From Aquificota bacterium (lineage in GTDB: Bacteria > Aquificota > Aquificia > Aquificales > Hydrogenothermaceae), in contig JAADDZ010000024.1 of the NCBI GenBank assembly GCA_013153635.1, positions 24,428 through 88,427 of the forward strand: DNA of 64,000 bases, read 5' to 3'. The notes under the pieces were generated by a model. That model was not told where the DNA came from, ran no database searches, and saw only the letters and a list, made by a program, of their open reading frames with translations. This document shows, piece after piece, positions 53,209 to 55,128 of the stretch; position 1 is the first letter of the stretch, and every line of letters begins with the position of its first letter. Position numbers and translations under genes: made by a program.

Positions 53209-53916
53209 TTATATCGTATTTATTTTGGTAGCTTTTATGAATAAAACTTCAAAGTTTAAGATTGGTTTTTGTTTTGAGTGGATAAGTTTTTTGTAATTTT
53301 GGATTTTTTTACCTAATGTTTTTCCATTGGTAGTGGTGGTAGTGCCTGTATTTTTGAGATGTTTTAACAGCTCTATATGATTTTTGAATTTTATTTGGTA
53401 GTTTTTTAAGAACAGTTTTTCTATATGAAAATAATAGGCTGTTATGTTTTTTATTTTTTCTTTTTCGTAAAAGGGAAATATTTCTTGTCCTAGGGATTGT
53501 TTTATTATCTGTAGACTGTTTTTTGTGGGGATACTGAATATGAATGTTCCTTTTGGCTTAAGTATCCTATACACTTCAGGAATAGATTTTTTTAGGGTTG
53601 TCCAGTGTAAACTGAAGTTTGATACAGCAAAATCAAAACTTTCGTTTTTAAAGGGTATGTTTTCTATGTCTGCTACTATTCCGATGTTATTCTTTTGGAC
53701 GAATCTTTCTATCATATCTGGGGATATATCTATTCCTATTAGTTTTTTTTCGGTTATTTGATTTATAATGCCTGTTCCACAGCCAAGGTCTATACCTAGA
53801 CCATTTATATCTTTTATTAACTTTTTTATCTCTTGTGCTGATTCCTGTTGGACTATTATCTCTTTTTCGTATTTTTCTACAGCTCTTGAAAATTGTAAAC
53901 TTATTATTTTTTTCAT
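53209..53916 (-). CDS. bioC: malonyl-ACP O-methyltransferase, BioC-type
   Basis: SAM-dependent methylase that disguises malonyl-ACP for the biotin precursor pathway. The N-terminal FSRAVEKYEKEIIVQQESAQ is the BioC signature; motif I is LGIDLGCGTGIINQI, followed by SNFSLHWTT and YRILKPKGTFIFSIP. The later HIELLKHLKNTGTT also matches BioC. 235 residues. No other biotin genes are in the window, so the call rests on these motifs; another small-molecule methylase is possible. Confidence 0.78.
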   Translation of the reverse strand: MKKIISLQFSRAVEKYEKEIIVQQESAQEIKKLIKDINGLGIDLGCGTGIINQITEKKLIGIDISPDMIERFVQKNNIGIVADIENIPFKNESFDFAVSNFSLHWTTLKKSIPEVYRILKPKGTFIFSIPTKNSLQIIKQSLGQEIFPFYEKEKIKNITAYYFHIEKLFLKNYQIKFKNHIELLKHLKNTGTTTTTNGKTLGKKIQNYKKLIHSKQKPILNFEVLFIKATKINTI

Positions 53917-54030
53917 GGTTAACGAGTATTATATCAGATTAAAAGACTTTAAAATATACTTGAAATAAAAAATATACAATTTATCCTTATATCGTGCAGA
54001 TAAAAAATTTTTTAAGGAGGGGTTCTAAAG

Positions 54031-55104
54031 ATGGGTAGAATTTATGGAAAAGTGGAAAGCCCAGAGGATATTAAAAGGATTAACTGTATCATTAGAGATG
54101 AGATGCTAGAGGTGGAGACGCAGGAACAGTTAACTGATTTGAAGAAGAGAAGTGATTACCTTTGTACTCTTACTTATAGTCCTTTTTGGAAGAAAAAGTT
54201 TGGGGCTATGGTTGAACAGTTAAGAGAGGTGGCTTGTGAAGAGAACAGGGTTACTGTTCGTTTAGCTAACTATATCGCAAAGTTTAAGGGGTGGGATAAG
54301 TACTATGACCCATGGGGTAAAGAGGATAAAACGATAGAGCAGATGCTTTCTGAAATCCCACAGCAAGTTATGGAAGAGATTACAGAGGCGGTAGTAGATT
54401 TGAAGTTCTCTCCACAGATTTTGGAAGATTTGAGAAAGGCTTTTTGTGATATTAGAAAGGCTATGGTTTTGGCTGAAGATTTAGAGACTTTACAAAAGTT
54501 AAAAAGGAGAAGTGATTTTCTCGTTGCTCTATTGATGTTACCTGATTTTAGAGAGAGGTTTGGAGATATTATAGATGAGATTGAAGAGATAGTTAAAAAA
54601 GAAGAGCGTAGAACTGTTAAACTTGCGAACATCATTGCTACTGTAAATAACTGGCATGTACTATTTGAGACTTGGTCTGAAGAGGATATAGGAGAAAGCG
54701 AGACTATAGAGCAGTACTTACAGAGATTGGTAGAAGAAGAAGAGAAAGCGGAGAAATATATACCTACAGAAGCGAAGTACAAGGAAGGTAAGGTTCTATG
54801 GCTTGTATATTATCATAAAGACAGAGGGCGTTGGTACGCAAAGCGTATTTATTTCCCGGGAAGTGCAAGGAATATAAGAATAGAAGGTCCTGGAGAGTTT
54901 GTTAATAGATTTGGAAGAAAGGTTTGGGGTGTGAAGATAACTTATGAGGCAAATCTAAAACCTACGGTTATCCGTTTGAGAGGTCGCGTTATTCATTTAC
55001 CTGAAAGATGGGTAGAGAGAACAAAAGTTATAGAGTTACCTAAAGCGGCAGAGCAGATTGAGCTAAAAGAGGAAAGACCAGAATTTGCCTATCCTGTAGC
55101 TTAA
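54031..55104 (+). CDS. unrecognised protein with internal tandem duplication
   Basis: I do not recognise this family. The 357-residue soluble protein has two copies of a ~97-residue helical domain, about 12-106 and 132-230, offset by 120 residues: LKKRSDYLCTL against LKRRSDFLVAL, VTVRLANYIA against RTVKLANIIA, and TIEQML against TIEQYL. A beta-rich C-terminal part (about 250-335, WLVYYHKDRGRWYAKRIYFP then WGVKITYE) follows. No signal peptide, membrane helix or catalytic motif. A strong AAGGAGGGG site, its own terminator and single-gene organisation suggest good expression. Third-codon positions are rich in G and T. Confidence 0.75.
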   Translation: MGRIYGKVESPEDIKRINCIIRDEMLEVETQEQLTDLKKRSDYLCTLTYSPFWKKKFGAMVEQLREVACEENRVTVRLANYIAKFKGWDKYYDPWGKEDKTIEQMLSEIPQQVMEEITEAVVDLKFSPQILEDLRKAFCDIRKAMVLAEDLETLQKLKRRSDFLVALLMLPDFRERFGDIIDEIEEIVKKEERRTVKLANIIATVNNWHVLFETWSEEDIGESETIEQYLQRLVEEEEKAEKYIPTEAKYKEGKVLWLVYYHKDRGRWYAKRIYFPGSARNIRIEGPGEFVNRFGRKVWGVKITYEANLKPTVIRLRGRVIHLPERWVERTKVIELPKAAEQIELKEERPEFAYPVA

Positions 55105-55128
55105 AAGGGGAGAACTCACTCCCCTTTT
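55103..55128. terminator. bidirectional rho-independent terminator
   Basis: Ten-base-pair hairpin AAAAGGGGAG-AACTCA-CTCCCCTTTT between the plus-strand duplicated-domain gene and convergent mtnC. T-rich on both strands, so it can serve both genes. Confidence 0.9.

Follow-up and report, generated by a model that had tools for sequence, protein, structure and literature searches.

A vent-associated protein family without known relatives, found in Aquificota and other bacterial phyla

The window analysed here, a 64,000-nucleotide stretch of a contig from an Aquificota bacterium, contains at 54031..55104 of the forward strand an open reading frame (ATG start, 357 aa) that raises the question of what kind of protein it encodes, how it reached its host and what it may do there. 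This reading frame, its product and its relatives are called the focal gene, protein and family below. The strong ribosome site ascribed to the gene in an earlier note is present: it reads TTAAGGAGGGG, with the Shine-Dalgarno sequence AAGGAGGGG (54014..54022, forward strand) and a GGAGG whose last base lies 10 nt ahead of the start codon; a similar core was found in 15 of the 50 long ORFs of the window, and AGGAGG in seven. An intrinsic-terminator hairpin (AAAAGGGGAG-AACTCA-CTCCCCTTTT, 55103..55128) lies between the focal gene and the convergent mtnC and is usable from both strands; because it is near-symmetric it can serve mtnC too, and the terminator that had been called private is in fact common to the two convergent genes. 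In codon usage the focal gene is among the most atypical of the window, and it ranks first of 50 ORFs in GC3; this atypical usage is no less compatible with a foreign origin than with high expression. On the upstream side, a gene at 53209-53916, divergent from the focal gene, encodes a Methyltransf_11 domain protein (E 3e-20) and adjoins dnaN-gyrB.

The focal protein contains an internal duplication. When residues 1-118 were compared with residues 119-245, the local BLOSUM62 score was 189, a value reached by none of 2000 shuffles (30.5±5.1), and the half-versus-half scores of six relatives, from 59 in a flavobacterial copy to 210 in the Thermodesulfobacteriota copy, each exceeded those of all 500 shuffles. 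The repeats are offset by 120 residues, without gaps to about residue 95, and the repeat unit is about 95 residues long. The AlphaFold model is confident (pLDDT 84 and pTM 0.62 for the whole protein; pLDDT 90 for the beta domain alone) and shows four helices that recur about 120 residues apart in the two repeats; the two helical copies proposed earlier are thus borne out by both the shuffling and the model. Repeat 1 (residues 11-95; 54061..54315) comprises helices 11-25, 31-47, 51-57 and 60-86 according to the alignment and the model, and repeat 2 (residues 130-215; 54418..54675), a diverged copy, comprises helices 130-146, 151-167, 171-176 and 181-205. They are followed in the model by an acidic connecting helix (residues 226-241; 54706..54753) and by the beta-rich part that had also been predicted, a meander of eight strands at residues 254-346 (54790..55068). 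This beta domain is basic, with a pI of about 10 for residues 251-357 of the focal protein and of 9.8-10.8 for the domain in all eight members tested. The protein closes with a conserved C-terminal tail (residues 347-357; 55069..55101; consensus ..RPEFAYxIA / ..KPxSAMDIA), which has the same end residue in every complete member of the family. All of these segments are encoded on the forward strand.

Values of dN/dS between close relatives (0.02-0.035) point to very strong purifying selection on the family, and the conservation is unevenly spread over the two copies. Mean column conservation is 0.89 for residues 11-57 as against 0.65 for the matching part of repeat 2, and the fifty-odd columns that are invariant in 47 sequences across phyla, many of them polar, are clustered in repeat 1, which has the nearly invariant segment RINC-IIRDE ... 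LKKRSDYLCTLT-SPFWKKKF. S41/D42 and A79/N80 of repeat 1 are invariant in the 47 relatives, whereas in repeat 2 D162 and A199 are each kept in 81%, N200 in 96% and S161 in only 34%. The suggestion that the R-S-D and L-A-N positions form a conserved surface therefore holds in so far as a conserved face exists, but that face belongs essentially to repeat 1 and not to both copies. Repeat 2 keeps R135, C139, R142, K158 and E191 in every row and, in most rows, also D162 and N200. The positions that the two copies share (C19/C139, R22/R142, K38/K158, E71/E191 and, mostly, D42/D162 and N80/N200) look like a shared structural core, and the residues invariant only in copy 1 (N18, D23, E24, K39, R40, S41, Y43, C45, S50-W53 and K56) probably mark a working face.

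Sequence searches of Pfam, NCBIfam, PHROGs, PADLOC and the PDB gave no convincing match to the focal protein; all but the NCBIfam search were also run with the 47-member alignment. In Pfam and NCBIfam no whole-protein score exceeded the curated cut-off over the length of a domain, the best match being Rad52_Rad22, which in a single member of the 47 just reached the cut-off, at 20.3 bits, over a partial stretch. Weak matches to Rad52/Rad22 (PF04098) were found in 20 of the 47 members (best E 5.5e-4) and trace to a short LAN....GW motif that closes the fourth helix of one repeat or the other; they extend over 30-58 residues, so that no more than some 58 of the 153 positions are covered, and slide between the repeats, lying at 67-99 in one member and at 168-227 in others. 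The Rad52 core is, moreover, beta-beta-beta-alpha, whereas by DSSP of the model the matched region of the focal protein is made up of helices 60-86 and 181-205 and is free of strands, and membership of Rad52/Rad22 was rejected because only a local motif, moving between repeats of an all-helical region, is held in common. MSL3 chromodomain, PRMT5, diphtheria T domain, eIF2-beta and Polycomb were likewise rejected, their matches being weak, confined to few members and of E at least 0.007.

Structural comparison gave a similar result. With the whole protein, the best Foldseek E-values were 0.02 against the PDB and 0.07 against viral models, with low TM-scores and none at or below 0.001; with the beta domain alone, the best E-value against the PDB was 0.7 and the best VIA Z-score was 3.1. 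No structural relative of the modelled beta domain was found in these libraries (PDB and viral models), which does not prove a new fold. The repeats were matched by VIA-align to generic helical bundles (14-3-3, STAT and designed-repeat folds) with Z at most 10.6, a value inside the range given by unrelated helical models, and the Foldseek E-values for such folds were at least 0.02. For the beta domain, seven of the 15 matches listed by VIA were HU/IHF-type DNA-binding proteins, aligned with residues 37-93 of the domain model; both are basic and overlap weakly (Z 2.0-2.2 over 42-46 residues, which is noise level), but the HU-type helical dimer is not seen in the focal model. HU/IHF was absent from the best-represented 25 of 31 Pfam families matched at the sequence level (47 members, E 0.1), and no HU/IHF protein was found in the PDB with a beta-domain profile at E up to 10. 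A literature search found no paper describing the family, and the view that the protein matches no known family has stood up to both the sequence and the structure searches.

A scan of 84,980 species genomes, which reaches close relatives only and leaves distant archaeal copies beyond its reach, yielded 48 loci, 47-83% identical and near-constant in length save for a few copies cut by contig ends. The carriers are found in Aquificota, Campylobacterota, Flavobacteriales (Bacteroidota), Chlorobiota, Thermodesulfobacteriota, a Dictyoglomota-type lineage and a WOR-3 bin; the expectation of hits only in Aquificota thus gave way to a family exchanged across at least five phyla, mostly of vent bacteria. 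The gene is present in 33 of 136 Aquificota genomes (near-universal in Desulfurobacteriaceae, patchy in other Aquificota), 9 of 298 Campylobacterota, 1 of 296 genomes of the order of one flavobacterial carrier, 1 of 355 of the phylum of carrier L021, 2 of 9 of the Dictyoglomota-type phylum and 2 of 198 of the Thermodesulfobacteriota-type phylum. Carriers with a readable source are deep-sea vent bacteria; the sample prefixes 4571-419, 4281-140 and 4561-380 are those of a deep-sea vent-deposit survey (PMC9793634), the prefixes of the L_MetaBat series being untraced. The gene lies on a complete, single-contig chromosome of 1,676,444 bp, which by its size is that of the cultured Nautilia profundicola. 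A chimeric MAG or assembly artefact was rejected, since the gene occurs in complete single-contig genomes and the flanks in the window match the host's own genus at 67-84%. One Aquificota genome (G067:C21:6961-7442) has gene fragments only, one of them with two internal stops, which suggests gene decay, and at G121:C113:5008-5097 only 30 residues were matched.

The host of the window shares a family with Persephonella MAGs. On the tree, the window copy groups with WOR-3 (98/85), a label that stands for one MAG contig in which a binning error is possible, and then with Chlorobiota/Bacteroidota (95/99), beside Desulfurobacteriaceae. A single clade of the window copy and its own family's copies was rejected (lnL -153, AU p 3e-57), two Aquificota copies nest within Nautiliaceae, and the phylum changes eight times on the tree. 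The phylogeny shows that the focal gene has been transferred horizontally between phyla. An empty site was sought in sister species, the contigs of which end or diverge just beyond mtnC, and no precise insertion boundary was seen. The Shine-Dalgarno sequence found in most other Aquificota copies is missing upstream of three Aquificota loci (L022, L023 and L056) and likewise of the Bacteroidota/Chlorobiota copies, a difference that may stem from the translation signals of the hosts or from the donor. That the focal family is new, horizontally spread and vent-associated we hold to be highly probable.

The family has spread mainly among thermophiles of deep-sea vents. All nine carriers in Campylobacterota belong to the 15 of 298 genomes that have reverse gyrase (Fisher p 1e-13, a value that ignores kinship, the nine carriers being related and representing few independent events). 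Among carriers outside Aquificota, reverse gyrase was found over the cut-off in 14 of 25, and those without it are seven Flavobacteriales, two Chlorobiota, WOR-3 and one Nautiliaceae MAG. The IVYWREL growth-temperature proxy is high in most carriers; in Flavobacteriales it is not clearly raised (carriers 0.393 versus relatives 0.380, p 0.13). The cultured Nitratiruptor SB155-2 (by its size, the chromosome of 1,877,931 bp) has reverse gyrase and lacks the focal gene, so that thermophily does not depend on the gene. Nor does the family follow heat strictly.

The focal gene is mostly stand-alone and often divergent from its upstream neighbour, and its neighbours vary between families and are stable within them (Desulfurobacteriaceae, Nautiliaceae and Flavobacteriales). 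No neighbour gene family was found to recur across host families, in agreement with the earlier remark that the gene has no partners. In eight of the nine Desulfurobacteriaceae loci examined (L012-L015, L017-L019 and L053; for example, L017:7972-9915), a DUF505 gene (PF04458) lies immediately upstream on the same strand with a spacing of 49-85 bases, the ninth locus (L011) being cut by a contig end. DUF505 is present in 19 of 298 Campylobacterota, including all nine focal carriers, and because it occurs in 14 of the 15 reverse-gyrase genomes of this phylum it is itself thermophile-associated. In six Nautiliaceae loci (L033, L034, L035, L037, L041 and L049) a conserved hydrophobic gene of about 261 aa follows the focal gene on the opposite strand, often overlapping it by 4 bases, and in several Nautiliaceae loci a small gene of about 160 aa precedes it; these two neighbours had no Pfam match in L035.

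As to function, we tentatively propose, at rather less than an even chance, that the focal protein is a stand-alone, soluble cytosolic vent-adaptation factor that would probably bind nucleic acid or a ribonucleoprotein via its basic beta domain. It would act alone or with a universally conserved partner, since no partner gene is linked to it in the unrelated hosts in which it works. Together the two four-helix units would build a single scaffold: copy 2 would be a degenerate, structural partner and copy 1 the working face (N18, C19, R22, D23, E24, K38-Y43, C45, S50-W53 and K56), the invariant face of repeat 1 serving as a partner-binding or catalytic site, and putative contacts with nucleic acid or ribonucleoprotein would be made by the C-terminal beta domain. 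A faint structural pointer to such contacts is given by the HU/IHF-type matches of the beta domain, which are at noise level and have no counterpart in sequence. The most likely role would be to adapt the hosts to, or protect them from, heat or fluctuating temperatures at vents. A fuller version, namely a two-domain family with a new beta fold that is vent-specific, crosses phyla like reverse gyrase and acts on nucleic acid or on the translation or transcription machinery under heat or changing temperature, is doubtful.

The invariant Cys, Asp, Lys and Arg residues of repeat 1 are no less in keeping with an enzyme, which together with a ribosome or polymerase factor is the main rival of this proposal. 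Its active site would lie in repeat 1 (N18, C19, R22, D23, E24 and K38-K39-R40-S41-D42-Y43-C45), repeat 2 would be a pseudo-site and the beta domain would hold a substrate or cofactor for some vent-specific step, such as the detoxification of a metal, a sulfur species or a damaged metabolite. The clustering of invariant, often polar columns in repeat 1 and the recurrence of the C..R, L..LK and E/N positions in the diverged copy agree with this, but neither sequence nor fold matched any enzyme in the libraries searched, an invariant His and a CxxC pair are absent, and no metabolic genes recur beside the focal gene; an enzyme seems to us unlikely. If the protein were instead a factor docking on a universal machine, the ribosome or RNA polymerase, for example during dormancy or heat stress, the fixed target would account for its conservation, and the dN/dS of 0.02-0.035, the basic tail domain and the retention of the gene without linked genes in different phyla would all be in keeping. 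In the Pfam and NCBIfam searches, however, the protein did not resemble any known hibernation or polymerase-binding factor, and we consider such a factor quite unlikely.

A structural or self-assembling role inside the cell, as a filament, cage or scaffold, is suggested by helical repeats generally arranged like those of designed repeat or filament proteins and by the duplication, which suits assembly; these matches are generic, though, the Z of up to 10.6 falling within the range of unrelated helical bundles, and the conservation sits in one copy rather than along both, so that we judge this very unlikely. The patchy distribution, the phylum-to-phylum transfer and the codon usage atypical in the window would also be expected of a selfish or virus-derived gene (part of a mobile element, or a capsid-like or defence protein). 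Relatives of the focal family were nevertheless absent from 50,697 phage records, 72,556 plasmids and IMG/VR, PADLOC gave six single-member matches (best 0.0011) and those of PHROGs were not convincing, while the neighbours resemble ordinary chromosomal genes with none recurring across host families, synteny is stable within families and purifying selection is very strong. A selfish origin is, in our estimate, highly improbable.

Few genes are markers of a habitat rather than of a lineage, and the textbook habitat gene for heat is reverse gyrase. A single, strongly conserved gene that unrelated deep-sea vent bacteria share, that most sampled Aquificota lack and that falls in no family of the libraries searched would point to a so-far-unnamed selective pressure at vents. 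The novelty claimed here is that of the protein family, the function of which may prove ordinary; if it were only an ordinary enzyme, the family would still be new and its gene a marker for vents. Its presence in a cultured carrier, Nautilia profundicola, makes the family open to testing.

Two known proteins invite comparison with the stand-alone vent-adaptation factor proposed here. DUF505, which is also present in Thermotoga maritima and Methanocaldococcus jannaschii, is a thermophile-associated protein of unknown function that accompanies the focal protein in all nine Campylobacterota carriers, but it has no sequence relation to it, and the two genes are adjacent in one family only. Reverse gyrase (TIGR01054), placed in all hyperthermophiles by PMC6878951, resembles the focal family in its hot habitats, in its horizontal spread and in its presence in Nautiliales and Aquificota, whereas the two are unrelated in sequence and fold. 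Unlike reverse gyrase, the focal family is missing from most of the Aquificota genomes sampled and belongs largely to marine vent bacteria.
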